DNA of 64,000 bases, taken from NCBI RefSeq assembly GCF_964204645.1, contig NC_134031.1, positions 20,085,307-20,149,306 of the forward strand. Direction: 5' to 3'. The position numbers were made by a program, and so were the translations under genes. Below the pieces are notes generated by a model, which was given only the letters and a program-made list of their open reading frames with translations, did no database searches and was not told the origin of the DNA. This DNA comes from Tubulanus polymorphus. Lineage: Eukaryota > Nemertea > Palaeonemertea > Tubulaniformes > Tubulanidae. Below are positions 5,218-62,800 of the stretch, piece after piece (position 1 is the first letter of the stretch; every line of letters begins with the position of its first letter).

Positions 5218-6909
5218 AGTTGGATTGCGTAATTCACAGAGATTTATGTCAAGAGTACTCCTCCCTTATTGATTTATGTGATATCATTTTTAAAATCATT
5301 CATTTATCCATGCAGGTATCAACCACCCCTTCTAGCCATTAGCATTTTTAGTCCGAATGTGGACGAATACTTTTTAAAAGTGTGCCGATAAAATGTTTAA
5401 TTTCTTGTGTCTCAGGTTAAATACTGAACACATGTGAAGTGTGATGACCAGTTTTGAAAGTCAGCTGATACAAGTTTAATGTCTGATTTTTGTAGTTCAT
5501 CTATCATTTAAAATGAGTTTAAATCCTGAACACATGTGAAGTGTGGGATCTTACATTGTTAGAGTGGTGATAATGTAGTGGGTGTTTGGCTCCAGGAAGC
5601 CTGAATTATTGATTAATTTGTTTCTGGTGATATTATTCTAGTTAAACGATGAAAGCTTTCTGCATTTTAATCGGTTTTATTTTAGGGGTATGTCATACGA
5701 TTTCGGCGTCAGTTCAGATATGTAGTTGTTTGTTGACATATCTTTTGGAATTATTTATTCAATCAATGTCAAAAATGGTTTAAAAATTGAGAAATAAAAA
5801 GAAATCGAAATTTGTAAACTAGTTAGTGAAGTCCTTTATTTTTGTTGTTGTGGATTTGAATATTGTAAAGGCTCCGAATGGGAGAAATCGATCGTCGTCA
5901 TCGCAGTGTTTTGCGTTCGATTATTATTGACAGATCTTGATTGTCAGGTGCTTCTGCTAAATATATCATTAGCTGTGATCGAGTGGACTAACTGGACAGT
6001 GTAATATGCATACTGTGGCATGCGAGTAATAAATTAGTTCACGTATTCACCGTCAACGATATGTATAGAGGCAGCACTTGTCGGTTGAGCTGCAGTTGGT
6101 TCTGTCGGATGTGATCTACTCTTTGCCTAGTGGTTTCACTTCCGGGTCAAGAATGTCAAGTTTATTATGACGAAAATCTCATAAAGATTAGCTAAGCTAG
6201 ATATGCATAGAATTAATAACGAGTTGATTGAAAATGGATCGACGTTGAGCTGAATCACGACTCGATAACACTCAGGGATTGTAAGTGATCACGTCTCTTC
6301 CATTTTTCCGTCATTTCGTTAAAAAAATAGTTCTTCGACTTCACTTCTTCATTTCCACTGCACACAACCAACCAATGATTCAATGAACTGAACAAGTCGA
6401 AAAAGATAACTAACCCAGTTAATAATAAGATCAAATTTATGTCCTACTCATTGCTCATTAGTAAGAAATTCAAACCGATTCATTATAAATAAACCACTCT
6501 TTTCGTTTCTCATGTGATAAATCAATGGCTGACAATAACAGTTCATGATTCATCATATTCATACCCACCCTACATAGTCATAGGGTTGGTTGGGCCTATT
6601 TTTCTTCCGGTTTCAGATTAAGATATTAGTTGAAAATAGCCCATTATCACAAGGGCTTGTCACGCTGACAGTATCCCAGAGGTACCACCTATATAAAAGA
6701 TGCTGGTTCTTAGGATACTGTAGTGAACGTTTGATTTAACGTGGAGAGCCACCTGTGCTGATTGTTACATTTAATTCTTCATGCTTCTAATTTTGTCTTT
6801 AACTGTTTTGTTTTAGGTTGAAGAAATGCTCGTCGTTTCTTCTTGACAAAAAGAACAGAGTTTATTTATTGGCTATAACGACGCAAGGGTCTCTGGTCAG
6901 AACGACACG
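5218..6909. other. DIS3L2 3' flank and FIP200 5' region
   Basis: It holds the DIS3L2 3' UTR (AATAAA at 5793), a block of dispersed repeat family B (about 5386-5570, two ACACATGTGAAGTGTG units) and the FIP200 leader. A donor (GTAAGT at 6281) and an acceptor (TTTTAG ending about 6816) suggest a non-coding first exon for FIP200 followed by one 5'-UTR intron. No other gene is visible. Confidence 0.5.
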
Positions 6910-9900
6910 ATGTTGTATGTATTTCACATGAACACCGGAACAATGCTGAAGTTTGATATCGGTTTAGCGATGGAAACCGTCGCCAACCTGAAAAAGGTGA
7001 TCGCGCATCGGCAGCACGTTCCAGAAGAGCGTCAAGTTCTATTAATCAGCGGAGGGGATAATCTCGAGCCGACTCAGAGAGTTTGTAGCTACAGCGCCGG
7101 AACCGACACCAACCCGATATTCCTGTTCTGTCAGAATACGATCGAAGACGGAGCGCCACCTATCTCGACGTCGGGCGGCGAAACGTCGCGTTCGGAAATT
7201 CACGACAAAGTCGAAGCGACGATGAACATGTCGGCGTCGTACGAGACGGTCGTGACACGCGCGCAGATGGCGCTGGCGCTTCACGACGCCGCCGTCAATG
7301 AGTTGAAACTGTGCGAGCAGGTCGTACACGATCAACACCTACAGCACCAGGGCTGGGCAGCGGCCGTCGCTAATCTCGACGATATGATCGCTTATTTCAC
7401 GCGTTGGGTGGAACGATATAAAAAATGCTTCGAAGATTACCTCGAAAATAAAGACTCGTTCGTCGATATCGTCGATCGGTTCGATTCGGTGACCGAGCTA
7501 CTAGCGAGGATTCCGTTCCTCGACAAGTTCGCGTTCGCGTGCAACGCGACCCAGTTAGAGGACGACGGTCGTCCGAAGTGTAAAACGCTGCTCGACTGGA
7601 TCGAAACGCAGGATAGTCGCAATCTGCAGGATACGTTGAGTATATGCTCGCGAGGTTTACACCAGTTCGACGACAAACTGCTGGAAACGATGAATCAGGA
7701 TATCGCGGCTGCTTTAGATAACGCGTCGGCGCCCGGGATGAAAGAGGTGAAAGGACTCGAGGATCGTTTATTCAAACTCGAACAGTTTATGCACACGTCG
7801 AAGAAACTCGTACACGAACAAGGCGAATTAGCTCAGGGATTTTTACAAAACCAAACTCGCGCCAGTAACATGCGCGATAATTCGATATTTCCCGATTTGT
7901 GCGACAGTCATAAACAGCAGCTGCAGGTGATGCTGAAGAACCACGTGCGTCTGCAGGACTGTCGCGACAAGTGCTCCAAGGCGAAGAGCGAACTGTGTTT
8001 GAATTTACACACGCGACTGCGCTGGTTGTTGTACGTCGAACGCTCCGTGTCGGAATTGCTCAGTCGATTGTCGCTCGATTATAAAGAACTGGAACGGATT
8101 AAACAGACGTGTTTGATATTGGAACACCTGCAGAGATCTCCGCGTATCTACGCCGCGATTATCACCGAAATATACCGACGTCGACATTTCAAAAAACAAT
8201 ATTCCGACTGGGCTCGGCGCTTGTCTCACGATAGTCAACATTTATACTCGGAAGAGTTAACGCGTCGTAGTCAAATCGTCCAACTCGTCGGATCTCATTT
8301 CTTCGGTCATTTGTTTCCGGGACTATCGGAGAAACCTCCGCCGTTCGCGACGGACGCTCTACGCGAGTTCGACGCCGCTCTGCCCGATATAACTGCTGAG
8401 GATATCACGACGTTACGCGATGCGGTCCCCGAATTACACGACCAGTTGAAAGTACCCGAGTTGGGCATCGCGCAGTTTTTATCGCCGGCTCGGAAGAGGG
8501 ACGCTGTCGCGGCGGAGGTAGCGGTTCCCGACGAAACGGAAGACGTGTTCGGTTCGATCGAGATTCTTTCTCCGATGGGCGAAGAGCATAAAGATTGTTC
8601 GTACGTACGATTCAGCGATAAACCGGAACCGACGGAAACCGACAACGAAAACATCGTCATCGTCGAAACGGAAGACGACGACGCGATGTTTCGAAGCGGC
8701 GAAAGTAACGTTCGTTCGGTGATTAAACGCGACGATAAACCGACGACTTCTAGTCATATTAATAACAACACGACGGCAGCGAGCGCAGACGATCGCGCTC
8801 TCGGAACTCGCGCTCAGTTATCGGTCGGCGAAGTTCTACCGAAATCACGATCGGACAGCGACGTCGTCGGAGACACGGCGGCCGTTTCTCCGGATACCGA
8901 GGAAATGTCGTTGGAGTTCGCGACCGCCGTTTTTTACATCGATGAATCGATGCCGTCATCGATGGCCGATTCGCCGCCGATGCGCACGCGAATCAACGAA
9001 CTGCAAGCGATCGTTAACGAGAAGACGTCGTTAATCGAGCAACAATTGAATCAGTTGCAAACGAAAGACGAAGTCGTCGCGGAAACCGAGCGACGATTTC
9101 GATCGTTACGCGATCTCGCCGATTCGAAAATCGGGGATTTAAAAGACGATCTTTCGTCGACGAAAGAAATGGTCGAAAACGAAAAGGCGGAATTTAGCGA
9201 ATTCGTCGGCGTCGTCGATAAGACAATCATCGAAATGATCGGTCAATTCGATTGTCGTAAAAACGTTCAGAATCAGCGGCTTATCGACGAGGTCAAATTG
9301 GAATACGCGGAGAAAATATCCGGTCTCGAGAAGGAATTGGTCGAAAAATCGGAATTGTTCGAAAAGGCTGAAAAACAACTCAAAACTTTACGCGAAAAGT
9401 TGACGTCATCCGAGACGCAGTTGAAAGTGAGTACGGAGGAGCACGAGAGGAATATTCTCGATTTACGAGCGGCGCACGAGGAATCGAATCAGAAGGTTAT
9501 CAAGGAGTTGACGTTGGAACACGAAGTAGACATCGAAAAACTGCAGTCGGATTTCGCGAAAGAGCTGCAATCGGCGAATGACGAAATCGATGCCGTGAAA
9601 AATGAATTGCTAGAAAAACAACGCGAGAAAGAACGCGCGGAGAACGAACTGGAAAATCTGAGTAGAACCCTGAGGGAAACATTCGAATCGGAGAAAGAAT
9701 CGTTAGTGCAAGTGATGCACGAAGAGTTCAAACTGGAGAAAGAATGCGCGGTTAGTTTAGCCGTTTCAAATTTGGAGAAGAAACACAAAGAAAAACTGAA
9801 TAGTCTCCGAGACGACCATAAATCGGCTCTCGACGAGGCGCGGGCTGAAGTGACCGATGAAGTTACACGGCAGGTGAAAGAAGACAAGGAACGAGAAATC

Positions 9901-11040
9901 GAGCTCTTAAAAGAGGCGCATCAAAACGAGTTGGAAAAGTTGACGCAAAGTCAACGCGAAGAGATCGAACGTTTGAAAGAAGAGATGGAGGCGGAAAAGA
10001 GAGAAGCGTTGGATAGCGTGTCTCACAGTATGACCGAATCCCATAAACAAGATATCGAGATATTACGCAGCGAGCTCGAAAAACAGAAACGATTGAGTCT
10101 CGAAAGTCCGGTGAGCGATAAATGGCAGGAGGAGAAAGATTTCGACATCGCGGCCGCTTTAGAGAAACAAAAAGTCGAGTTCGAAGAGAAAATGTCGTCG
10201 TTGAAGTGTAAATACGAACAGGAGAAAATCGACGGTATCAAAACGGTGCGATCGAGTTTGATCGCCGAGCGACAGGTGGCGTTTAATGAAGCGATCAGTC
10301 GATTGTCGAACGAGAAAGATCGAATTATTGATGAGCTGCGACAGCGCGAACGGAAACTCGTCGAAGAGCTCGACGCCGAGAAAGAGTTAAATCAAAAACT
10401 AGCCGAAGAACAAGCGGTAATCGCGGATAAAAAAGACGTCGCGCCGGCGACGCTGATGACTTCGCAATCGGAAGCTTCCGGTTTGTCGGCGATGTGCGCG
10501 TCAGTCATACCGGTACGCGAGTTCAGCTCCGATACTCAAAATCCGATCGATCGAATTCACGAACTCGAAGCGACATTAAAAAACAAAGAAGAAGAATTTG
10601 CGCGAATGCAGCAGAAAATGATGGAGTTGTCGATGACTCAGAGCACGCGTATGATCGTACAACAACACGATAAAGTATCGATAACGACGTGTAATATCGG
10701 CGATCTCGTTTTACTGTGTTTAGACGAACGACACGACCACTACGTCGTGTTCACCGTCGGTACTACTTTACACTTTCTCCACTCGGACTGTTTAACGACG
10801 CTCGGCTTGAAACCGGAATCCGGCGAAGCGAAGAAATCGTGGGTGTTGGCCGAAATTATCGATAAAGAATATTGCCAAGCGCGAAAGCCGCAGAATCGAT
10901 TTAAAGTGCCCGTCGGAACGAAGTTCTATCGCGTTAAAGCCGTGCCGTGGGATCGCGATATCGGTGAAGCTTCGACTGGCGCTGCGAAGAAAGAAACGCC
11001 ATCTACATCCGGGCTAACTGGCGGCCCTTCTATGAAATAG
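6910..11040 (+). CDS. RB1CC1: FIP200/RB1CC1 (ATG11/ATG17-like) autophagy scaffold, single coding exon
   Basis: The scaffold subunit of the ULK1-ATG13-ATG101 complex that starts autophagosome formation. 1376 residues; vertebrate FIP200 is about 1590. Residues 1-80 form the ubiquitin-like start (LYVFHMNTGTMLKFD...RVCSYSAGTDTNPIFLF), followed by an ATG17-like helical region with HDQHLQHQGWAAAVANL. The middle (about 560-690) is acidic, Ser/Thr-rich and low in complexity. A long coiled coil fills about 690-1240. The C-terminal Claw domain (about 1260-1350: GDLVLLCLDERHDHYVVFTV, CQARKPQNRFKVPVGTKFYR) binds cargo receptors in the known family. ATG at 6910 is chosen because it matches the family N-terminus. 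The exon is rich in CpG codons (TCG, GCG) compared with flanking DNA. Its lack of introns is striking beside intron-rich neighbours. AATAAA at 11127-11132. Confidence 0.95.
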   Translation: MLYVFHMNTGTMLKFDIGLAMETVANLKKVIAHRQHVPEERQVLLISGGDNLEPTQRVCSYSAGTDTNPIFLFCQNTIEDGAPPISTSGGETSRSEIHDKVEATMNMSASYETVVTRAQMALALHDAAVNELKLCEQVVHDQHLQHQGWAAAVANLDDMIAYFTRWVERYKKCFEDYLENKDSFVDIVDRFDSVTELLARIPFLDKFAFACNATQLEDDGRPKCKTLLDWIETQDSRNLQDTLSICSRGLHQFDDKLLETMNQDIAAALDNASAPGMKEVKGLEDRLFKLEQFMHTSKKLVHEQGELAQGFLQNQTRASNMRDNSIFPDLCDSHKQQLQVMLKNHVRLQDCRDKCSKAKSELCLNLHTRLRWLLYVERSVSELLSRLSLDYKELERIKQTCLILEHLQRSPRIYAAIITEIYRRRHFKKQYSDWARRLSHDSQHLYSEELTRRSQIVQLVGSHFFGHLFPGLSEKPPPFATDALREFDAALPDITAEDITTLRDAVPELHDQLKVPELGIAQFLSPARKRDAVAAEVAVPDETEDVFGSIEILSPMGEEHKDCSYVRFSDKPEPTETDNENIVIVETEDDDAMFRSGESNVRSVIKRDDKPTTSSHINNNTTAASADDRALGTRAQLSVGEVLPKSRSDSDVVGDTAAVSPDTEEMSLEFATAVFYIDESMPSSMADSPPMRTRINELQAIVNEKTSLIEQQLNQLQTKDEVVAETERRFRSLRDLADSKIGDLKDDLSSTKEMVENEKAEFSEFVGVVDKTIIEMIGQFDCRKNVQNQRLIDEVKLEYAEKISGLEKELVEKSELFEKAEKQLKTLREKLTSSETQLKVSTEEHERNILDLRAAHEESNQKVIKELTLEHEVDIEKLQSDFAKELQSANDEIDAVKNELLEKQREKERAENELENLSRTLRETFESEKESLVQVMHEEFKLEKECAVSLAVSNLEKKHKEKLNSLRDDHKSALDEARAEVTDEVTRQVKEDKEREIELLKEAHQNELEKLTQSQREEIERLKEEMEAEKREALDSVSHSMTESHKQDIEILRSELEKQKRLSLESPVSDKWQEEKDFDIAAALEKQKVEFEEKMSSLKCKYEQEKIDGIKTVRSSLIAERQVAFNEAISRLSNEKDRIIDELRQRERKLVEELDAEKELNQKLAEEQAVIADKKDVAPATLMTSQSEASGLSAMCASVIPVREFSSDTQNPIDRIHELEATLKNKEEEFARMQQKMMELSMTQSTRMIVQQHDKVSITTCNIGDLVLLCLDERHDHYVVFTVGTTLHFLHSDCLTTLGLKPESGEAKKSWVLAEIIDKEYCQARKPQNRFKVPVGTKFYRVKAVPWDRDIGEASTGAAKKETPSTSGLTGGPSMK

Positions 11041-14228: not shown

Positions 14229-17200
14229 ATGTTGCTATACGTACAAAGTCCAGTTTTTTCAGTGAGTAAATGACAGCGATCCTCCTCGGAAATCATTGAC
14301 CTACCCCTGTGTGTCTTAAACTGTTCAGATGGATAATTCGCATGAATTAGAATGAAGATTCAATTCAAAGTTTTATTCGCATATGCCATAAAGTCTAAAA
14401 TAAAACAAACAGTTCTACTTCTAATGTCTATTTCAACCTGACTTGAGAGCATTCCGAGTGGCCTAGCTCGCTCATTTTTGGTTGTACATACCTGACAAAG
14501 GTCTTAATAGGACCAGAAAGGACGGGCAGTCGACCTAAATCATCATTTTTTAATCCATTCGAAAATGTATTGAAGGATATCCAAAAAGTCTTCACTGAAA
14601 GGGGTTAAATGAAGAGAAGTGACTCCATTATTTGAAAGTTTAATAATATGTTTCCATGCCTACATACCAAACTTCACTTGGTAGGAATGGAACCATATTG
14701 TTAAACTTTCAAATCATGGAGTCTCTTTTCTCTCAGGAACCCCTCTCAATGCAGATTATTTTGGATATCCTTCAATATAGTTTAAAGTGGATTAAAAAAT
14801 GATATTTTAGGTCAGCTGCCAATGCATTCTGGTCCTAATAAGACATTTATCAGGTATGTACTACCAAAACTGACTGAGCTAGGCCACCTGATGTGCTCTC
14901 AAGTCAGGTTGAAATAGACATTAGTTCTAGTTCTACAGTATTACTGGCCAACTGCAACATGCTGAAGATTTTTGCCAGGTACCACTTTTGGGTAAAAGTG
15001 CAGACTTGCACCTCTCGTGATTGACGCAATCTGCTGAATGACAGAATTCAGGCTAAAATCTTTCTATTCTCTCTAGTGAAGATATCTTAAAATTAACCAA
15101 TGGCAATGTACTGAATTGCTGATGACATTTGAATCTGAAACAATGATATTTAATGTAATTGATTGAACCGTTTACGCGGAGAGGTGTGGATCTGTTAAAT
15201 CAGTGAGTCGACAAGCACTGATATGTGTCCTGCCTGAATAGCTTGGTTTCACTAGGATTCGAACCCTCAACCTGTCAGTTGTGAGTCAAACACCTTATCC
15301 ACCACGCTACAGGACAGGACACACGATCAGGCTTAGCAATGCCAGAAACGTGAGAAAGGCTAACATCCATACAAAAAACAAAAATATATACTACTGTTAA
15401 CAGATTTAAACGACTCGGTAGAATGTGGATTGCATTTATAAAGATGCTATTACAAAAAAGTTAGTTTTGCTCTTCTTCAGCAGACATGAGAGAGGGCATA
15501 GACCTATTCATTTATAACAATTACAATACAATTCAAACTTCAAATAAATGAGGGGGCCCCTGTGCATTCACAATGCTGCAATTAACTACGAATTAAATAC
15601 TTCTGTTAGTAGCGTCAATGCAGTGGTCTCCTCTCAAATGGCTGACTTGAGCCAAAAAGTAGCCAAAAGTAGACGGTATAACTAGTGTATTTCTTATTTC
15701 TGGTTTCAACTAGTTTGATAGGAGCAGCCACATCCAGCTCAGAATGACAGCTGAACTAAAACATCGATTCCCTAATCCGCTTTAAGTTGGATTGAATGAT
15801 TGCCGGGTCTAACTATTTCTGATTGTTTTGTAAGTATATTACGTATGTTCCTGTTTTGCAGTGTAAATCGTTTGTCGTTGTTGTAAAACCTGATGATACG
15901 ATCGCGCGTATTCGAGCTCAATTACTGCACATACTGTACAGATACAACCGCGATGAACATCAGTTCCGTCTCCGGTTCAAAGGTCAATACCTACGTGACG
16001 CCTACACGATCGACGACTATAGGCTTACTGATAACTCTGTACTGAAAATGATTCCCATGTCAAAACGATCTGAGGTAATAATTAACGTCTGAGTATCACA
16101 TGAAATACAAATGGCGGCCTAAACGATGCCTGAGTTGCGTACATGTTTTGCATGTACATGCTTTGGCCCCTTGATTTGAAGGTCTTTATACAAGAATCTC
16201 GTTTTCTGGTACATACTTTTAGTCTGTGACCGATATAGTTTCAACGAGTAGTGTTAACAGCATTGAGGATGAAGGTCCTGGTCAAAGTCCTCAGGTTAAG
16301 GCTGCACTCGCTAAAGAGCTGAAAACGTTCAGATGGAGAGAAGAAATGGTCAAAGATTTCAAGGCGAGTATTGAGAAAATTTTCCATTTGAAGTTGAAAG
16401 CTCAAATCACACGGAATGCCACATAATTGATAGCCTTTGATTGTGGCATGAATGCTCCAATTCGTGCGATGTTGACCCATATTTACTCCAACTGTTCCTG
16501 AATTTGCTTGCTTCAGAGAAAACTTCTTGGTCCTGGAAGATCTGAGTCTACTGTGTAACTGTATTGTCAGATTAAGCAGGCTGCACTGCCATATGCACCA
16601 ATCTTCTTTTAGTTTTATAACTATTTTTCACTATATTCCAGGCGTTGATGTACATGTTGTTGGTAATGAGTCCATTTGCGGGTTTTACGAATTTTTGGTA
16701 CGGTATTTTCTGGTGCTTCTTCATTCCATTGATCGGAGCTGTTGGATGCCCGTCCTACACTCAATTTGCTGGCTACGTTGGAGTCAATGCTATCTAGTAA
16801 GTTCCGCCGAACCCTCGATGGATTATTGATAATTTCTCTAATTAGTTGTGCATTACTTACAGTATTTTCGAATATTTCAGTAAAATACAGTTTTGCGCAG
16901 TGTTCGGAGTTCTGTCGCTTGCAAATCTAGCCGCAGATATTTACCTTGTGTTCGGTGATATATCCACTGTTCTCGTAAGTGTTTTACATTGAAATTCACG
17001 TATTGTTCAGGTCACGGAGTCTACTGCACCAAAAAAGCCATTATTCCTGAACATAACTATTAGCCAAAACGTTGGTTTAACTTCCGGGTTATAGCTCAAA
17101 GAAACGACGATCATTAAATCACGGACAAGATCCAGTTCCCACAATTATGAGTTCAGATTTGATTCAGGAGTTAACTCACTGAAAAGGAAGTAATTTTAAC

Positions 17201-20200
17201 TCAGAAGTTAATTCTAATTCACATTCTTGTTGGACTGAATCCTGTGTTTCCATTTTCATTCACAAATGATTAATTGATTATGCGTTATTTTACAATAGGC
17301 TAGTGGATGTGTGAATTCCGATGGCGGATGCAGTACGCTGTTGTTTTTCTCGGCTATCTACTTCGCCCTTCACGCATTCCTCATTCTGATAGGCTCCGGA
17401 CTCGCTTGGGCCATGCTTAACAACTTCCAGATCGAGGTAACCAAGTCGAAATACTCATCACTGTCACCTGCAACAGATCAGGCGTTTAATTGTTTGAAAT
17501 GTGTGTTTTATAGATGGGCGATATCGTGGAGAGATACCTGGTTCAAACGCGTAACATCGAGAAAGTAATGCATACGGCGCGCAATGGAAAGTACGTTGTT
17601 GAATATAAAAGCTGTTTTGTCGAAATGTTGTGTATTGTTTATATCGTTTAACTGTAACTGTTACAGACTGAAAGAGAAACGCATCGCAGCGTTCGAACTG
17701 GCCACTCTGGCTGCATCAGGAGACGACAACAAATATAAGATTGTAACAGAAGGCGGGTATGTTTACTGATCTGGACCCTCTCGGTCAGGAAATCACTCAC
17801 ACATCTGAAAGTGTTACTCTTGTAAAAGTCTAGTTAGTTACCTAATCGTTGGTGGAAAGCTTTTCTAATCAGATGGTCTCATACTAAACGTGAAAATATC
17901 CGATTGTGAAATGAAACCACGGATAGGTTCAATGTAAAATCTCATAATATTGAAAGACTAAAATGTTTATTCAGAAATACTAGAAATACTAGTGATTGTT
18001 ACCACATTTCTTCAGTCAAAATTTAGACTGAAGAAATGTGTAAGCAACCACTAGTATCAATAGTAGAGCTGATTTTTCAACTGATTTTTTGTGTGCCATC
18101 TGACTATGACATGGTTATATTCAGTGCATTTTTGTTTGTAATTGTTATAGTTTGGAAGTGCTGATTTCAATGATCCTTTCATCTGATGAAACAACTCGGG
18201 AACATGCAGTCGAGTGTACAGCTGAATTACTGACGTTACCAGATTTACAGGTTCAGTATGATCGAGTTGTTAGATGGCTATAAAACTGGTCTCCAATTTG
18301 TTTTGGATTTGTTTTTACCCTATTAGACGGTTACCAAATTAGAAATCAGGTTTAGTTAGTCTTAATGGTAAAAATTTTCTTACAAAACTACCACTGAGAT
18401 AAACGATATAGATTTAGGAGGAGTCTACAGTACTTGAGATATGAAAGTGATGCAGACGCTTCCTCAAAATTTAAGATTTTCTCCTTATATGGAGGAATGA
18501 CCGACTGATGTAGTACAGTATCTATTTGATTTTTTAGGATCAGTTTATTGATGAAGGCGGATTACGTTCATTAACTGCCGTATTGAGGTCATCTAATGAA
18601 CGCTTGGTTTACGAAGCCGCGACCGCTTTATCTTACATTGTTTCTGAAACAGATGAAAATAAATCAGCTGTCATCAACGACCACGGGTAATTATTATCTG
18701 CGTTTGTAGCAAGTCTGACAAAGTGTGAAAGTGCTGCGCTATTTTTTTGAAAATTTAGGGTGGGTGGTTAATTTTCATGCAAAATCCAGAAAGTGCTGAA
18801 AAGCATTTACTTGTACTCATTGTTATCCTAGGAAATTTCTACTGCCAAATTTCATTGCGTCTTCATCTGCAAATACAACTGCACCGATTATTGAGTTATA
18901 CCACTTGCCTTCTATCAATAACAAGTCTACATTACATACCAGAAACTCGATTCAGAAAAAAATACTGAAGCCTCAGTCTGACAACTACTAATCCTGCCTG
19001 GAAATAATTCTGTCTGAAATCTGTGTCTAAAGAAAAACTTGATAAAATCGACTGTAATTAATTTTTAGATTGGAGGATTTGTGTTACGCTGCTGGTAATA
19101 GTTCAGTCGCCTGTCAGAGAATTGTTGCAGGTATATTCCTCGAGTTAGTATTCAGCTCTGATGTTCGGATGAGCATGTCTTCCATGAATTCACCAGGTAT
19201 TACTAAAAAATCTTCACGCTGTATCATGCCAATCTAAATTCCACTAGCAACAGATTTCAATTTTCGTGTTATTTTTACACTTCAGCGCAAGCATTGATTA
19301 CAATGTGTCAGTCGCAGGATCCTGAAACGCAAAGATACGCCTTGCAAGCTCTGGAACTACTGGCTATTGAGAGCGCTGATATGATCTGTGCCCAGGTATT
19401 ACAGTACTAGATTTTGATGATGCGCCATCGAATGATTCAATTTTCCATCGATATAATTTTTCGCATGTTTTCAGGAGGAATTGTTACCGGTTTTACTGAA
19501 TCTTCCTCTTGTTTGTCCTGATGAAAAGTTGTACGTGTTGGCAGCTAAATTACTGCTCTACTACGCTGAAGATGAACAGGTACAATTTGTAATACAGTCA
19601 ACACTCGATTATCCAATATCCAAATATCCACCAACCTCGGTTTTCTGCCCAAATTTTCAGTTTCTCTTTTTTCGATAACAAAAATGTAGTTCAGTTTAAC
19701 AGGAAATTGGCCCTTACAGTGGCAGATAATAATCGTTTGTTTATTTAGCAAAACTGAAAACATTTCTTTGTATCTATCAATGATACACAGTGCTCTGGCC
19801 ATGTCTTTAATAAGATCAGTTATTCCGCCGGTTGTTTAGATATTTATTTAAAGAACGTTCGAATTTCATTCAGACTTGTGAGCTGTTAGTCGAACGCGAT
19901 AGTTTGTACGCATCTTTGAACTTGTACATCCAATCACAAGAACCAGTTGTCCAGAAAGTCGTCGCGAAGGTCATCTATTGTATCATCGATACTGGTGATT
20001 TGAGGTAAGAATCTCATGTTCTGATCATTGTCCATCGTGAAATCTTAGATTTCATTCATACCCATAACTTATTGGTATTGTTATTAGGATTCGCGCTGAA
20101 GAAATGAAGCTTGATGAAATACTGCAGACAGTTAAAATGAGAGCTATGGATAGAGAGACATGGGATATGGCTGATCAAGGTATTCTTCGACTCTAATCAA

Positions 20201-20600
20201 TTCATTTTTACCCGTGTTAGAAATTCGTTCTAAGATCCCTATAGCAGGCTTTGTTGATTTGATTGGTGTTCACAGTTTCTGGAATGACAAAGTCTGTAAA
20301 CCTGATAGAAGTAGAGAGAGTTTGTAATCCGGAAATGCTTTCCCTTTACCGGAATACATTCAATCAAAACCTGCCTAAAATGGATGTTGCTAAAATTGAT
20401 TATTATTGATTATTCCACCATGTTCAATCCCTGTTAATTAATATCACATTCATATTTCAGCTTTGCAACTTATGGAAGGCAATCGATTGGGTTTAAATCT
20501 ACCAGAATTGTCGCCGATGGAAAAGATTGATAAATTGTCGTCGAAAGGCTCGCATCTTTCTATCGAACCGAAAGCGGGTACATCTACTGGTTCAATGTAG
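14229..20600 (+). CDS. Ubiquitin-like / multi-TM / armadillo-repeat membrane protein, unnamed (16 exons)
   Basis: Exons: 14229-14261, 15862-16074, 16223-16363, 16642-16796, 16881-16974, 17299-17436, 17514-17590, 17667-17756, 18151-18250, 18538-18686, 19069-19196, 19286-19395, 19475-19579, 19874-20004, 20088-20179, 20461-20600; 631 residues. Residues 1-80 look like a ubiquitin-like fold (MLLYVQSPVFS, then CKSFVVVVKPDDTIARIRAQ, ending TDNSVLKMIPM). Residues 81-129 are a charged linker. About 130-245 hold three or four membrane segments (FWYGIFWCFFIPLIGAVG; FCAVFGVLSLANLAADIYLVF; TLLFFSAIYFALHAFLILIG). About 270-590 are helical repeats of armadillo type (EGGLEVLISMILSSDETTRE; EGGLRSLTAVLRSSNERLVY). 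The tail is Ser-rich. The start exon is 33 bp with a strong donor and supplies the missing first beta strand. The intron after 16363 appears to use a GC donor. I know no named family with this order of domains; function unknown, perhaps a ubiquitin-like adaptor on a membrane. Confidence 0.72.
14421..14924. mobile_element. Long foldback element in intron 1 of the UBL-TM-ARM gene
   Basis: The two halves are inverted copies. The left arm starts CTAATGTCTATTTCAACCTG and the right arm ends with its complement. Other paired segments include GAGAGCA.../...TGCTCTC, GGTCCTAATAAGAC and its partner near 14500, and GGATATCCTTCAATA against TATTGAAGGATATCC. The arms are about 245 bp each around a centre near 14675. 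No coding frame. Confidence 0.75.
15240..15325 (-). repeat. tRNA-derived SINE or tRNA-like fragment
   Basis: On the minus strand: TAGCGTGGTGGATAAGG (A-box-like) followed by GGGTTCGAATCC (perfect B box) at tRNA-like spacing. The arms do not pair well enough for a functional tRNA. Confidence 0.5.
18413..18505 (+). repeat. Dispersed repeat family A copy
   Basis: TTAGGAGGAGTCTACAGTAC...GAGATATGAAA...GATGCAG...TTTCTCCTT parallels 3980-4055 in the DIS3L2 gene. It lies in an intron of the UBL-TM-ARM gene. Confidence 0.6.
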
Positions 20601-44568: not shown

Positions 44569-45567
44569 ATGTTGGTGAATGAGACATCAGAGGGTTTCCG
44601 ATGCCCGATCATTGAAAACGAAGTTTATAAGCAGTACTGGAGAGTATACGGTATCCTAGCTACCAGTGTTATAGGTGTTTTCCTGAACATGTTTGGTATC
44701 TTCGTTTTTCGAAAAATGACCGAAAGCGGGCAAGCCATCTACTTACTGACCGTATTATCGATAGCTGATATTATATATCTGGTAAATATATCCTTGCATA
44801 TTCCAATTCGTAAACTTGTTTTCCAAGCTTTTTACGGAGACGAAGTCTTTCGTCGAATAGAATACGGAGTATTTCCAATGTGGCTCTGGATCAGCATCGC
44901 CTCTTACAAGTCAACGGTAACAATACGTAATTGGATTGTCGTTTTATCCGCTGTTGTTCGGTGTCTGCATATTTTCTTTCCCCTGTGGTCTCGACGAGTT
45001 GTCGATAGAAAACTAGTAAATATAAATATAGCTGTAATTGTCATTATATCGATAATTATATATATTCCCCGTTATTTCGGGATTAGTATCGTCCCTTACA
45101 CGTGTCCGGGAGATCCATTGTTGAGTCGTCCAAGTTATCCTATATTTAAGAAAGACAAAGCTATGGATCTGAGTTCGACGTGGATCTATTTAGTCGTAAC
45201 GGTAAGCTCACCGATAGTAATTCTCCTATTAGCCAATATGGCGCTAATATGGTCCATAAGTCATAACAGGAAAGTTCGAAAATCCATCACGGTATCGCAA
45301 TCAAATTCTGATACGAAGGCGACTCAACTGGTATTCATATCAACAATAATCTACCTGGTCTGCGAGTCAGCAACTGTCGTGTCAAGGATATTCAACTATT
45401 TCGCAGACTATGAAGTCACCGATCTATTAAAGAAAGTATTCGATTTTCTAGACTACTTAACTCCTGTCGATTCAGCTATTAATTTCATCATTTATATGAT
45501 CGCCAGTAAAACTTTCAGACAAACCACGTATAGAATATTAATTGTCGGACATCGAGATAAAAGATAG
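44569..45567 (+). CDS. Class A GPCR 1, peptide-receptor type, atypical DRY (single exon)
   Basis: 332 residues, seven membrane segments, no intron. TM1 is GILATSVIGVFLNMFGIFVF and TM2 LLTVLSIADIIYLVN. The TM3 end reads SAVVRCLHIFFPLW where relatives have S-D-R-Y-LAI-FP-W, so DRY has become VRC. TM5 is TWIYLVVTVSSPIVILLLAN, TM6 TQLVFISTIIYLVCESAT, and TM7 PVDSAINFIIYMIASKTFR with NFIIY in place of NPxxY, as often seen in FMRFamide-receptor-like families. The conserved TM3 cysteine is absent, although one cysteine is present in loop 2 (PYTCPGD). N-terminal NETS is a glycosylation site. ATG at 44569 is the first in frame. Ligand unknown. Confidence 0.8.
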   Translation: MLVNETSEGFRCPIIENEVYKQYWRVYGILATSVIGVFLNMFGIFVFRKMTESGQAIYLLTVLSIADIIYLVNISLHIPIRKLVFQAFYGDEVFRRIEYGVFPMWLWISIASYKSTVTIRNWIVVLSAVVRCLHIFFPLWSRRVVDRKLVNINIAVIVIISIIIYIPRYFGISIVPYTCPGDPLLSRPSYPIFKKDKAMDLSSTWIYLVVTVSSPIVILLLANMALIWSISHNRKVRKSITVSQSNSDTKATQLVFISTIIYLVCESATVVSRIFNYFADYEVTDLLKKVFDFLDYLTPVDSAINFIIYMIASKTFRQTTYRILIVGHRDKR

Positions 45568-46537
45568 CTTGTCACATTCGATGTATAAGTATCGAAAGCT
45601 TGCGACGCATCTTTTAAATCTAATGTTATTATAGATATTTAAGAAGACGATAATAAATATTTCTTATCGTCTATAATATTGTTCACAACATGTATGTAGA
45701 TTAACACATTATAAAAGACTATTAGCCATCATCAGGCGTACTGAGTACAGAATAAATAATACAGGATATTTATGCAAGAAAAAAACAAAGGGACTAAGTG
45801 ACTGATTGAATAGTTGAATGGAGAATACAGATTAAAAGAATTTAAAACAAAGACCGGAAAACACAACTAAGCAATTGCAAACGGCAAACTATTGGGATAA
45901 TACAAGTTGAAGTGATTAAAAAAAGCCCGAAGTGTTTAAAAAGCAAATGCGAATTAAGGGGTAATCAGACAAAATCAAATGGCGGGAACATAAAGGGCTT
46001 AATCAGTGAGCGAGTTGAAACAAGCAAGCACGAATAACGGAAAATGATATAGGGAATTAATATACAGAGAGTAAAAGTGAAGCGAGAATTTCGGAGATCC
46101 AATATGTTGTGGGGAGAAAACCGTTATTCAAATTAACATAATTTTTCAAATTTTCAATTAATCAGGTCAGATTCCATCCTCCTCATCCGGAAAACAATCT
46201 AGAACCAGTATCATATTTTACATTACATAGAAGAATCAATCTCTTAATCCGTCGAATTTCAGTATAATTCTATCGCTATGTGATTTTATAGAATACGTTT
46301 AAGTACATTGAAGAACCGAATATTCATAGTGTGTGTAGAATGAGTGCTGAAAATTGTCGGAGCGGAAGCTGTAATCGTGAAATTGTATTCTAGAATTGTT
46401 CGAGCGCGAGCTCAATTTAGGCGCGTGTCAAGGGAGCTACTTGTACGCAAAATTATACCCCTTATAATAACTAATTTCATATATTTTCATTCTTTCACTC
46501 ACTTCACTCGAACAGTAGAGGATCGCGAGTTCCAGCT
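45568..46537. other. Spacer between GPCR1 and GPCR2
   Basis: AT-rich; an AATAAA lies near 45652 for GPCR1. No gene or clear repeat seen. Confidence 0.45.
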
Positions 46538-47548
46538 ATGAATGAAACGATCATCTGTTGCGGTCGTTACTGCAATGGCGAAGTTGCTACCTACTCGTAT
46601 GGTGCAATTATGGGTATAGTTCGAGCTTTCATATACCTTATTGGTATAGTCGCCAATATCTTTTCATTAACGGTACTGAACGTCATGCAACTTCAGAGAA
46701 TTAGCAGCATGTTCTATATCAAGGCTCTCGCAGTAGCTGATTGCATCAACTGTTTAACTGGCGTATTTGGAAGAGAGTTGATGATGCTTGCAAGAGATTT
46801 TCCATTTGAATACATCAAATTCAATCGGACTTACCAGAAATACTATCTTCATGTATACTTGTATGTAGATACGGTATTTCAGATGTCTACTTCGACGAGT
46901 TCTTGGTTGCTTTTCGTGATGAGTATTGATCGCTATCTTGCTATAAGATTTCCTTTTTGGGCGAGACAATACTCAACAATAAATGTTGCACGACGTATCA
47001 CGGTTTTGACTTATTTTTTCACATTTATTTTCCATATTCCGACTTTGTTCGACGTAGAAACATATCGGGTGCAATCTGGTGAAGCATGTGAACACGTCGG
47101 CCTGAGATACCTACTACTATTCAACAAACAATATTCCCTCTATTACGATTTCCTTTTCGGTACTGTCGTGCTCAAGTTTATACCCGGTTTTATCGTTATA
47201 CTATGTAATGTGCACATGTTCATATTGGTCCGAAAGGCGGCCCGAGACCGGCTCAAATTCAGCCGGCAAGGCGAACAACAAGATGCAACAAACAGCCAAC
47301 AAGGTCGACAAATTACATTCATGATTTTAACGCTTAATTCAATATTCTTTATCGAATATTCAATGGCATTAATAAACACAATATTGCCGGCATTTTTTCA
47401 ATCGTCATATCGACCATATCATTCAGGACAATTAATACACGCAATCAATGCAATGATAAATCTATTCGTATATCTGGGCACCCGAAGAGGGTTTGGTCAG
47501 ACGCTGGTTTGGTGTTTGAGTTGTAGTTATTTTGGAAAGCGAATGTAG
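46538..47548 (+). CDS. Class A GPCR 2, peptide-receptor type (single exon)
   Basis: 336 residues in one exon. The N-terminus is MNETIICCGRYCNGE (a glycosylation site and three cysteines). TM1 is IYLIGIVANIFSLTVL and TM2 FYIKALAVADCINCLTG. TM3 ends in MSIDRYLAIRFPFWAR with a canonical DRY. ICL3 is KAARDRLKFSRQGEQQD, TM6 follows at ITFMILTLNSIFFIEYSM, and TM7 is INAMINLFVYLGTRRGF with NLFVY in place of NPxxY. The usual TM3 cysteine is missing, with loop-2 cysteine GEACEHV present. A decayed copy of its ICL3-TM6 region lies at 51650-51830, showing recent local duplication. It belongs to the same broad subfamily as GPCR1 and the pseudogene at 50490. Ligand unknown. Confidence 0.85.
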   Translation: MNETIICCGRYCNGEVATYSYGAIMGIVRAFIYLIGIVANIFSLTVLNVMQLQRISSMFYIKALAVADCINCLTGVFGRELMMLARDFPFEYIKFNRTYQKYYLHVYLYVDTVFQMSTSTSSWLLFVMSIDRYLAIRFPFWARQYSTINVARRITVLTYFFTFIFHIPTLFDVETYRVQSGEACEHVGLRYLLLFNKQYSLYYDFLFGTVVLKFIPGFIVILCNVHMFILVRKAARDRLKFSRQGEQQDATNSQQGRQITFMILTLNSIFFIEYSMALINTILPAFFQSSYRPYHSGQLIHAINAMINLFVYLGTRRGFGQTLVWCLSCSYFGKRM

Positions 47549-51830: not shown

Positions 51831-53152
51831 GTTAGGGTCTTGTATAAGCTATATATATTCGAATGTGCTCTGTATTTTATTATTTAATTGACTTACTCGA
51901 AAATATATACGTAAGGCCAAATAAAAAAATATTTGTTGATCATTAACCCCACCCGAAAAATATATACCCGACCCAAATTTCTGTTCAAATAGTACAAAAA
52001 CCACATTCAACGCGTTCCAATTTGGTGCCAATCAAAAATGATTTTGTCATTAGGACAGTTTAGCAGAAAATTTTAGCATAGAACCCAAATCATATTGATT
52101 TGAGTTCTATGATTTTAGTAAACAAAACGATTTATCGATCGATGAAGCGTCGTTCACTGAATAACAAACTGACGTGAACATTCGGTTGTGGAGGAGATTG
52201 GGCCTGCTGACGCCTGGAATAAACAGCGAAACAGCGGGCAAAACGCTTGGAGTTTAAAGCTATCGAATAGTTAAAATAAAATTGTTTTGATGGAAAAGCT
52301 GCTGTATTCTTTCATCGTATAACATTTACCACACTTTAAAAAATCAACAAAAAAATATCCTCCCGCCCTACCCAAGGATTTCGTAAAAAGACGCACAGGC
52401 AACTATCTTTTTTTTAATCTGGCCTTTTACAAACGTATACACTGTCGCGCACTTACTTTTAACGACAAGCTCAAATTTCCAATAGTTTAAACTCGAATAT
52501 TACAGTACAGTAGACTTGGCCTACCATACAACACTGATAGAGAACTATATGAGTGAAAAATATACATGCATGTAGCTTGGTTCGAGCCACGAGCAATTAT
52601 CTCAAGGCTCCCGGGTTCGAGTGTGAAACGATAAAACGAGAAAAAGTCGTTTTATCGCGCGAGGAAAGGAGTAATTTTCCATTTCGTTGCTACGTTTTAA
52701 AACGTAAGATAGCGATACGATACGTAATACACTATCATTTAGATTTAGGAGTTGACTGGAGTTCTGATGAAAGTGTTTCTATTAATCGAGGCGACTGGAT
52801 CGTTTTCAAAATACATATACACACATGTGTGTGTCGCTAAAAGTACACACCAACGAGAAATAATGGATTGCGGTTAATATTGGCGCGCGCCATATCAATA
52901 TTTTCAGTGATACCGTAATAATTCATTGCACAAAAAAAAAACATAAATACTACCCCATTATGTTTTCGCTTGATTTCATAACGAACCATAAGTTCATATT
53001 GATCGAGCTGTATCGGATAGTATCGGATTGTATCGGATTGTACCGGATTGTATCGGATTTACCAACAAACGCAGCATTTAGCAAAAACCGAACATAGGAG
53101 TAATTGAACGACGCAGAGCTTTACCTTTCAGTAGAACATACAGGTTATTAAA
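51831..53152. other. Kv gene upstream region
   Basis: AT-rich with purine tracts. It has a 9-bp hairpin ATAAAACGA/TCGTTTTAT at about 52631-52655, a (CA)-type short run near 52820, and a decamer array just before the Kv start (53011-53060). An acceptor-like ACATACAG ends near 53142 and may bound a 5'-UTR intron. No other gene supported. Confidence 0.45.
53011..53060 (+). repeat. Tandem decamer TATCGGATTG x5
   Basis: Five units of 10 bp in register (TATCGGATAG, TATCGGATTG twice, TACCGGATTG, TATCGGATTT), about 90 bp before the Kv start codon. Confidence 0.9.
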
Positions 53153-55016
53153 ATGACCGCTGAAGTCGAAGGGCAAAATTTAGAGATGGACGAAACATTT
53201 TCTAATGACGAGAATGACCGTTTGGTCAAAATAAATGTCGGTGGGCGAGTTTTTGAGACGAAAATCTCCACGTTAAAACGAATCCCTAATACGCGACTGG
53301 CCTCATTGCCAACCGACGAGGAGCATTTCATAGCTGATAGACAGGAATATTACTTTGATCGTAATTCTACTGTTTTCGAATCGGTTTTGGAATTCTATCG
53401 AACCGGTGAACTGCATACGCCCGTATCATTGTGCGGACCGCAGGTCAAACGCGAGTTGAAATACTGGGGAATCGACCAAAGGGATGTCGAAAGATGTTGC
53501 TGGACGAACTATTACGGCAGTATGGGAACTAGGGATGACTTGATTGAATTTGAGAAGTCGTTAATGAAATACAAGGCACCTGCTGCTGGTAAAGGGTGCA
53601 CATCGTGGAAGAAGCAAGTGTGGATGTTTTTAGACAACCCATCATCATCTATTGGAGCCACGGTAAGTGCCACGGATGTGGACAGAAAATCGGCAACTGT
53701 CACCCAATTTATCATAAGTCGATTCCTTCTCAGTTAAGGTCGGTTTCGTGGATAGATTTTCAATTACCATGAACTACATTGCATCCTAAATCTGAACTCA
53801 TATTTCACACAAGCGAAGATATCAAAACAAACTCCTGACTTTTCACAGAAAATACCTTTCAATCGTTATTCATGATTCCAACACAAAATAGTGGCGATGG
53901 TTTGCCTTATTCTCAAAACATAATTTGCAGTAAGCCGTATGCTAGTTGCTTTTAGTTTTAACTTTCCAGAAATATAACATTATATGATGACATTGACCGT
54001 TCAAATTTTTATGTACATTTCTAGTTCTACGGCAGAAGATTGATCAATTTTTTTACATCGCGTGTTTTTTCATCTCATCTTAGATATTTGCCGTCTTGTC
54101 GCAACTGATAATCATCATTTCGGTAATATCGCTTATCCTCGAATCGATACACGACGTTCAGGTTCCGATGAGTCGCTATGACAATGATACGTTACGCATG
54201 TTACCAGGAATCCGTCAAGCAGGCGACACGACCGTTCCCCCGATACAACTTCTCTACGTCGATTGGTTCTGCTACGTATTCTTCATCGTCGAATACATTG
54301 TGCGCTTCATTTTTTGCCCGGAAAGAAAAATGTTCATAATGAATATGTATTTTGTCATCGATTTTCTGGCCATAATTTGGCCGATTATATATTACGTCAC
54401 ACGACTAGTCGATGGAGAGTTCGCCGCGAAACCGAAATTCGTGATTACAGTTCGCGCTTTGGAATCGCTACGCGTGATCAGATTGCTGCACATTATGCGT
54501 AATATTCACGCCGGAGAAGTGGTTCTATATTCACTGCGCAGGAGTATGAGGGAAATAGGTCTGACTATTTTACTGTTCATAATCGGAACGGTGTGCTGCG
54601 GCTGTTTAATGTACTACGCTGAAAAAGACAACACGAAAAACTTTCTGGACATCACATCCTCCATCTGGTGGGCCATGGTAACGATGACGACGGTCGGGTA
54701 CGGCGACATGTACCCGACTCAACCATGGGGATATCTAGTCGGCGCTTTGACTATGGTCATCGGCATACTTCTTGTCGGTTTAACTTTCTCAACGATCGTT
54801 AACAATTTCATGTTGTTTTTCGGCCACGATCCCAAAGCAGACAACTATCGATGTCCCAGGTCGTACACACCCCCGAACATAACCGAGTTGGTGTTCAACC
54901 AGAATATTTACTATGCTCACGATAAACCTGCGACGCGTTACCCTTACCCCATAGACTCTACCGAGTGTGGAATAGTCAACGGTGGATATTACAGACGTGA
55001 GCCGAAAAGCTACTAA
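53153..55016 (+). CDS. Divergent voltage-gated potassium channel alpha subunit, Kv2-4-like T1 (2 exons)
   Basis: Exons 53153-53662 and 54084-55016; 480 residues. The T1 domain (about 24-140) starts DRLVKINVGGRVFETKISTL and carries the zinc signature of non-Shaker Kv channels, H-x5-C-x20-CC (HTPVSLC ... CCWTNY). S1 starts at 171. S2 contains FFIVEYIVRF. S4 (about 290-312) is VRALESLRVIRLLHIMRNIH: R, R, H, R and then little charge, about six residues shorter than Shaw-type S4. The filter is TMTTVGYGD (371-378). S6 is GILLVGLTFSTIVNNF, so the usual PVP hinge is TFS (404-406). The cytoplasmic tail is short, with a Tyr-rich end. A family member by architecture; kinetics cannot be inferred. A gated, tetrameric plasma-membrane K+ channel is expected. 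Confidence 0.88.
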
Positions 55017-59826: not shown

Positions 59827-62800
59827 ATGTGGCATTCTGCGAAACGTGCGTTTTACCTATGCCTCCATATATTTGCCCTCGAACCTGTGACATCCAGGAA
59901 GATTATTGAGCAAGGTAAGCGTGGAATCACTTTCATTGAGTTCTGACAGATCTACGCAATATGAAAATGATATAAAGCCGTTTTGCTTTTTGAAAGTTAC
60001 CGTTTAAGATCACTAGAATTTGTATTAAGAAATTGATACATTCTTTTCCTAAAACATTTAGGATTTCACCCTAACGTATCCGATAGCCTCAACTTGTCCG
60101 CATGTCATCATTTGAACGGCAAAATCATTTTCGACGTTGGTCTCCGAAAACAAATAGAAAATCTAAGACAATTGGCCATTCTGAATGGAGGTAGTAGCTA
60201 TACCGTTCGTGTATTTACGTAAGGTTTTTTATCAGGATCGAATTTAACATCGTCGTCATTTTCCATGTATAGAATGCGCTAACGGTACGAGCCTAGATTT
60301 ATCAGATAAGCAACATGCACCAGCAACAAAATCAACAGGATGGTCGGTAATTCAGTTCTTGTCATCTACGTATGACGTCAGCGATGTTCTGTTCGCTCTC
60401 ATCAAACATATAGCTTTGCACCGCGTGGTTGTCATATACGACAGAACGTGGCTGGGTAAGTGTGAATCAAAACTATCAAATGTTGTATCCATTCGTGGTG
60501 TGATAGAATAGCTAAAAACCCACAACGTAACAATTTTCAAAAATGAAAATCTCAAAAAAGGGCAAAACACTTCAAAAAAGTGCTTTATAATGCAATCGTT
60601 TCGGCCAATGAAAAACAAGACGTTATAACGATTTCGGTAGCGTTATAAAGAATGGTATTTCCATTGAATTCGAGTAACTCATGTATAGGTCGAGAAAATC
60701 TGTGCTCTGTGAAAAATGTTGGCGTTAAGTGAACATTGGCATTAAACAGGATGGTAGCGTTATAACCGACTTTGACTCTATTTATCAAATCAAAAAGACG
60801 ACATTTTGTCCTCTCACTCGTATATGTAAAGTGCTCGCATCACGATCGTTCACGTGAAAGGTTAGGAACCGAATTTACGCACTTTTATTATAGGATCGGT
60901 TGCGAAATTCATACGTGATCTGCGACCCAACACGCGCGCGGTGACATTCGAGATTTCTGACCGGACCGACTCGACGAATTCGTCAATCAAAAACATCATT
61001 TCACGCGTTATGTCTAGATGTGTTCCCGCGTACCGGCTGTTTGTTTTACTCGCCGACTCTACTGTCGTTACAGAAACGATAGATCAGGTGAGATATAACT
61101 GAAAATGGAAAAAAAACTAAATTTTGTAGCTGCGAAACAACTGTCAATCATAGTTTTTCTCCTGGTGTTTTCAATTGATCTTGAATACAGATTGGACCAC
61201 TATTAGGTTCTTCTCCTCGTCGTATCTGAGTCAATGCTCTGATGAGAATTACGTTGTCTGGTTCAAGAAAGGAAAGTTCCTTTTCTTATGTATCATTTTA
61301 GGCGAGTCTAAGTGGTTTACTACATAATCGTTTCTATTGGATCACAGCCGGCGATGAACTGCTCACGGATCCGATGCTGCCCAAATTCAGTAATATACTA
61401 CAAGTTTTGCCGTTGATTGAATGTCAAGATTATCGACGTGCAACAATTTCAAATGAAACTAATAACCTGGTAAGTTTTTTTTTCGACCGAATCATTGCAC
61501 CGAAATCAGACAACGATCTGACGTGACACCATGGCTTCATTTTTCTACTTTAGCGCGAAGAAATGTGGGCAACATGTATGAGGCAAGACAGTTCTATTAC
61601 TGCTAAGTATGAAATTTACAGTAGTTTTACCGACAACAGCGGTATCACCAAATTCCGCAAAACATGGCGGTGGTCGATCAAGGAAAAACAGTTCATCGCC
61701 AACAAGACGGAGAACAATGTGTTTATGAACAAACACAGAGCTATCTACAATCGACGTCTTATCGTTACTTCACAACTAGTCTGTATGGTTTTAAAATTAT
61801 TTCATTTTTCTAGATTGTTTCCAGTTTTTACGCATGAACTATGAACTAATTTACAGGCGTGGCCGACTGTGATTAAATACTACAATAAAACCACAAATGA
61901 AACTCTCTGGGATGGCTTCTGTTTCCAGATACTCAGAGAAATATCGAAGGTTTACAATTTCAGGTGAACAAAATTTTGTCTTCACTTTCGTCAATAAAAA
62001 TCAACAACTCGCCTCAATTGATAATTTTACTCTCAAGATGATTCTGTATTTTATGGACTTATAGTATGTTTGATATTTTTTCTTTCGGAGTTTTGACGTG
62101 ATTCAACCGCCCGATAATCAGTGGGGAGCCCAAGATGAAAATGGACGCTGGTCAGGGATGGTCGGCATGGTCATGAGAGGGGTATGAATTTCATTCTACA
62201 GCAAACGGTGTTGTAAATCAAAAGCCATCGTATATTCTATTGTCTGGACTTCTAAATACAGAAATACAACGTCATTAAAAGAATCTTGCTCGTACACTAG
62301 TTACTAGTATAAACCCCACCTCTTAATCGTTCTATATTCATTAGTAAACCTGCCTTTCCAGGAGGCTGATGTCGCCGTAGGGCCGTTTACTATCACGGAC
62401 CTTCGAGAGAGGTTCATAGACTTCACGTATCCATACGCGGAAGCAGGGCTTACACTCGTGATGAAAAAACCGCAAGAACAAAACAAAGCTTTCAAAATAT
62501 TGAAACCTCTGAACTGGCGAGTCTGGTACCTGATACCGTCGATGATGATCGTGGTCGGGATAGTGATACACGTAGCGACGCTGATTAGTCCTTTTGACCG
62601 GAGACAGATCGCTAAAAGGTTCGAACGCAAGTGTCCGAAGAAAGCGAGAAAGAAGAGTAGCCTAGAAAATACTATATGGTTAACGTTTGGTACTATACTC
62701 GAACAAGGTTCGTGAATGATTTACATCTATTTTGGAGATATTATACTACACCGGATCATCCCTTTCACGACACTATTCCAATATTCAATTCTATTCCAAA

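Follow-up and report, generated by a model that had tools for sequence, protein, structure and literature searches.

We have identified in Tubulanus polymorphus a single 16-exon gene whose predicted product joins an N-terminal ubiquitin-like (UBL) domain, a block of putative transmembrane (TM) spans and a C-terminal armadillo (ARM) solenoid in one chain. The gene lies within the 64,000-nt stretch of DNA that was analysed (the window), and we consider its UBL-TM-ARM architecture to be fairly secure on the sequence evidence. What the protein does is a more tentative matter: we favor, at somewhat short of an even chance, a scaffold anchored in an organelle membrane, in which the solenoid and the UBL would each dock a different cytosolic partner and so bring a client to quality control or degradation.

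Rebuilding the gene model from the DNA gave 16 exons on the + strand between positions 14229 and 20600 (Table 1), with a coding sequence of 1896 nt that translates into 631 residues, and the closed-frame model put forward in an earlier sequence-only reading is thereby borne out. The frame stays open across all 15 exon junctions, and each of the 16 exons is free of internal stops when read as called. Just 5' of exon 1, an in-frame TGA precedes the first ATG; the TAG stop occupies positions 20598-20600. Shuffled coding sequences never remained open in frame (0/2000). By codon score, 12 of the 16 exons favor the called frame over either alternative forward frame (narrowly so in exon 9), with a tie in exon 10 and no lead for the called frame in exons 1, 5 and 11. 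Introns are of the GT-AG type in 14 cases out of 15; intron 3 is GC-AG and has a good GC-donor context (AAG/gcgagt), and use of the nearby GT donor that we checked as an alternative puts exon 4 out of frame. Exon 3 begins and ends in phase 0, so that its omission preserves the frame; skipping this linker exon would set the UBL and the first span side by side, in frame.

Table 1. Exons of the predicted UBL-TM-ARM gene, with positions counted from the first letter of the window.
Exon	Position	Strand	Content
1	14229..14261	+	residues 1-11 (MLLYVQSPVFS), UBL first strand; donor gtgagt
2	15862..16074	+	residues 12-82, remainder of UBL; Pfam PF00240 E=4.4e-9 for exons 1+2
3	16223..16363	+	residues 83-129, charged linker; phase 0-0, GC donor
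4	16642..16796	+	residues 130-180, hydrophobic; one long or two short predicted spans
5	16881..16974	+	residues 181-212, weaker predicted span 183-206
6	17299..17436	+	residues 213-258, Cys216/Cys221 loop, strong predicted span 222-252
7	17514..17590	+	residues 259-283, basic start of ARM region
8	17667..17756	+	ARM repeat 1; PDB ARM alignments
9	18151..18250	+	ARM repeat 2; PDB ARM alignments
10	18538..18686	+	ARM repeat 3; best Arm stretch 348-383 (Pfam)
11	19069..19196	+	ARM repeat 4
12	19286..19395	+	ARM repeat 5; Pfam
13	19475..19579	+	ARM repeat 6
14	19874..20004	+	last part of repeat 6, most of repeat 7
15	20088..20179	+	last part of repeat 7, plus cap
16	20461..20600	+	helical cap, polar tail, TAG stop

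With the first 82 residues as query, the Pfam ubiquitin profile (PF00240) matches residues 10-74 at E=4.4e-9, spanning the junction between exons 1 and 2 and scoring 36.4 bits against a curated cut-off of 25.4, which bears out the N-terminal ubiquitin-like domain proposed from the letters. Ubiquitin from the PDB aligns over the same part of the 631-residue protein, and the alignment of the domain to ubiquitin beats all shuffles; NCBIfam returned only a weak Rad23 match over the UBL, far under its cut-off. A single-sequence fold of exon 2, made without an alignment and without the first strand, reached a pLDDT of 80 with the element order E-H-E-E-H-E. Its structural matches were weak, with HPr fitting at least as well as ubiquitin, and hence the UBL assignment rests on the sequence profiles rather than on this model. 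In a structure search (VIA-align) with the exon 2 model, no ubiquitin chain stood among the 50 matches listed, which is no evidence against the fold because the first strand is absent from the model.

The surface of the domain departs from that of ubiquitin. Aligned to ubiquitin, the UBL carries Arg49 at the Ile44 position and Ile75 at the Val70 position; in the TMUB-like, NEDD8-like and other UBL exons of the same genome the hydrophobic Ile44 position is kept (Ile, Phe or similar). The arginine makes the standard ubiquitin-receptor contact unlikely, and canonical docking of the UBL on such receptors is thus the less likely case on its sequence, with another docking surface as a possible route. 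Furthermore, the domain ends in MIPMSKRSE with no C-terminal Gly-Gly, indicating that the UBL is not a modifier.

Hydropathy reveals three hydrophobic blocks, of which those near residues 130-166 and 222-252 are strong and the one at 183-206 is weaker, in agreement with the three or four spans that had been predicted. Depending on whether the first block is one long span or two short ones, residues 83-258 could hold three or four. No Pfam family matched these residues and no PDB chain aligned to the TM block at E<=10. Charged, basic stretches flank the hydrophobic block on both sides, and the loop leading into the last span fits the lumenal side, since it has two cysteines (Cys216/Cys221) and no Lys or Arg. 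Four spans would place the UBL and ARM ends on the same side of the membrane, and this is the arrangement that we expect.

The solenoid is matched by the Pfam Arm profile at E=2.4e-14 in three stretches (53.2 bits, cut-off 20.6), and ARM proteins from the PDB align to residues 273-402, crossing several exon junctions. Counting by eye gives approximately seven repeats plus a cap, which, together with the profile match, upholds the seven or so repeats of the sequence-only reading. Many ARM proteins of the importin-alpha and beta-catenin type use an asparagine on helix 3 of the repeat for peptide binding. In a MAFFT alignment read by eye, we did not see this asparagine at the classical peptide-binding position of the repeats, and binding of extended peptides by the solenoid would therefore seem less likely.

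Support for our preferred reading, an organelle-membrane scaffold, comes from the open model with its consensus splice sites, the ubiquitin and Arm matches, the PDB ARM alignments that cross exon junctions, the absence of a Gly-Gly end, the single copy of the gene in the genome and the charges of the loop and flanks. The UBL would reside in the cytosol, followed by the charged linker; most likely four spans would anchor the protein, the even number being our inference, and the ARM solenoid of some seven repeats would probably return to the cytosolic side. As to the compartment, an organelle membrane is envisaged, with the endoplasmic reticulum as a first guess. The solenoid would hold one partner and the non-conjugatable UBL another, and a client could thereby be brought to the degradation or quality-control machinery at that membrane. 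Among UBL-TM proteins, Dsc3, Usa1 and TMUB1 couple membrane E3 ligases to other subunits or to p97 (PMC11555709). They provide the precedent for the role that we guess at here, in which the protein would loosely resemble the TMUB/HERP/Usa1 adaptors. It had been suggested that the protein tethers ARM-bound clients to a membrane under the control of a ubiquitin-receptor interaction. This idea is partly supported: the profiles back the UBL-TM-ARM order in one open model, but the proposed mode of action is weakened by Arg49 at the Ile44 position and by repeats that apparently lack the helix-3 asparagine.

These same two regions invite a different reading, in which the protein is a Vac8-like contact-site tether whose ARM solenoid grips a protein on another organelle and whose UBL is regulatory or structural and unrelated to degradation. 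Vac8 is a membrane-associated ARM protein and the best-matched natural ARM chain among the matches listed, its PDB chains aligning at residues 257-395, and a UBL without an equivalent of Ile44 would be at ease in such a role. However, the ARM match is generic, given that designed ARM proteins outscore natural ones among the PDB matches to the solenoid, and Vac8 is lipid-anchored and is not known to possess a UBL or membrane spans. We regard this alternative as unlikely, although deserving of consideration. ARMCX and ARMC10 are likewise membrane-anchored ARM proteins; they are set apart in having one N-terminal anchor and no known UBL.

It is also conceivable, albeit improbable, that two neighboring genes or isoforms, one coding for a short UBL product and the other for a TM-ARM product, are joined only in the model or only in some transcripts. 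A repeat element sits in the long intron 1, and exon 3, with its GC donor and phase 0-0 borders, can be skipped. Against this, the frame is still open where UBL exons 1 and 2 end, and the domain is followed there by a GT donor and not by a stop codon; the joins between exons 2, 3 and 4 are in phase 0, and introns 2 and 3 are short. We infer a single continuous transcript carrying all 16 exons. Phase-0 introns fall at all of the domain borders (UBL/linker, linker/TM and TM/ARM), a pattern that would suit assembly by exon shuffling.

The N-terminal UBL followed by spans might suggest a diverged TMUB/HERPUD-type member that acquired an ARM tail, a reading that we consider highly improbable given the separate TMUB-like UBL-TM exon at G000 C6:21641620 and a TM block that matches no family. 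TMUB1/2 and yeast Dsc3 do unite a UBL and spans in one protein, as here, but have two C-terminal spans (PMC11555709) and no ARM repeats, whereas the ARM region of the present protein comes after the spans. For this reason, and in view of the separate exon, identity of the gene with TMUB was rejected. That exon (C6:21641620-21641721, same genome) encodes the end of a UBL and then two hydrophobic spans. In HERPUD1/Usa1, an N-terminal UBL, a linker and a membrane segment follow one another as they do here; the differences are that HERPUD1/Usa1 are not known to have an ARM solenoid and that the TM block of our protein matches no Pfam family.

The gene is present as a single copy in the 268-Mb genome; the closest of the other ARM matches there, on C10, is to a generic repeat with 24% identity over 94 residues. 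No relatives occurred in the viral contigs searched, and the seven pattern matches in the prokaryote genomes searched include none. No entry in Pfam, NCBIfam or PDB has the UBL-TM-ARM order, and what the literature searches by phrase and term brought up describes no protein with all three parts; within these sources, the earlier statement that no named family has this order holds. An orthologue in other animals that is unannotated or merely predicted is likely. UBL-bearing membrane scaffolds are of a known kind and the protein appears to be a variant of them; our claim about its function is made with modest confidence. Membrane proteins with a UBL link membrane E3 ligases and p97 to clients (PMC11555709), and one with an ARM docking solenoid of its own would unite both jobs in one chain. 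It is tempting to speculate, although we think it doubtful, that the protein represents a conserved, undescribed animal UBL-4TM-ARM family, lost or unrecognized in vertebrates and acting as a new ubiquitin-pathway scaffold on an organelle membrane. Should such a family prove to be conserved among invertebrates while vertebrates lack it, it would constitute a testable membrane component overlooked by vertebrate-centered work.

The upstream neighbor is a large single exon (6847-11037) of an RB1CC1/FIP200-like autophagy gene, with ATG11 and ATG17_like domains and an N-terminal UBL of its own. A shared origin of the two UBLs was rejected, as 77 of 500 shuffles score as high. Within intron 1 lies a MITE-like fold-back repeat of approximately 505 bp (14421-14924) with two pairs of inverted arms; of 901 candidate places in the genome, the best 40 were scored, and these match it at 91-95%. 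Rfam gave no match within the window. Elsewhere in the window are two nearby single-exon ORFs resembling 7TM receptors (44569-45564 and 46475-47545; 7tm_1/Srw matches), a BTB_2 exon with a long ORF after it, resembling a voltage-gated potassium channel (53135-55013), and an exon from a gene that resembles those for ionotropic glutamate receptors (62308-62712).
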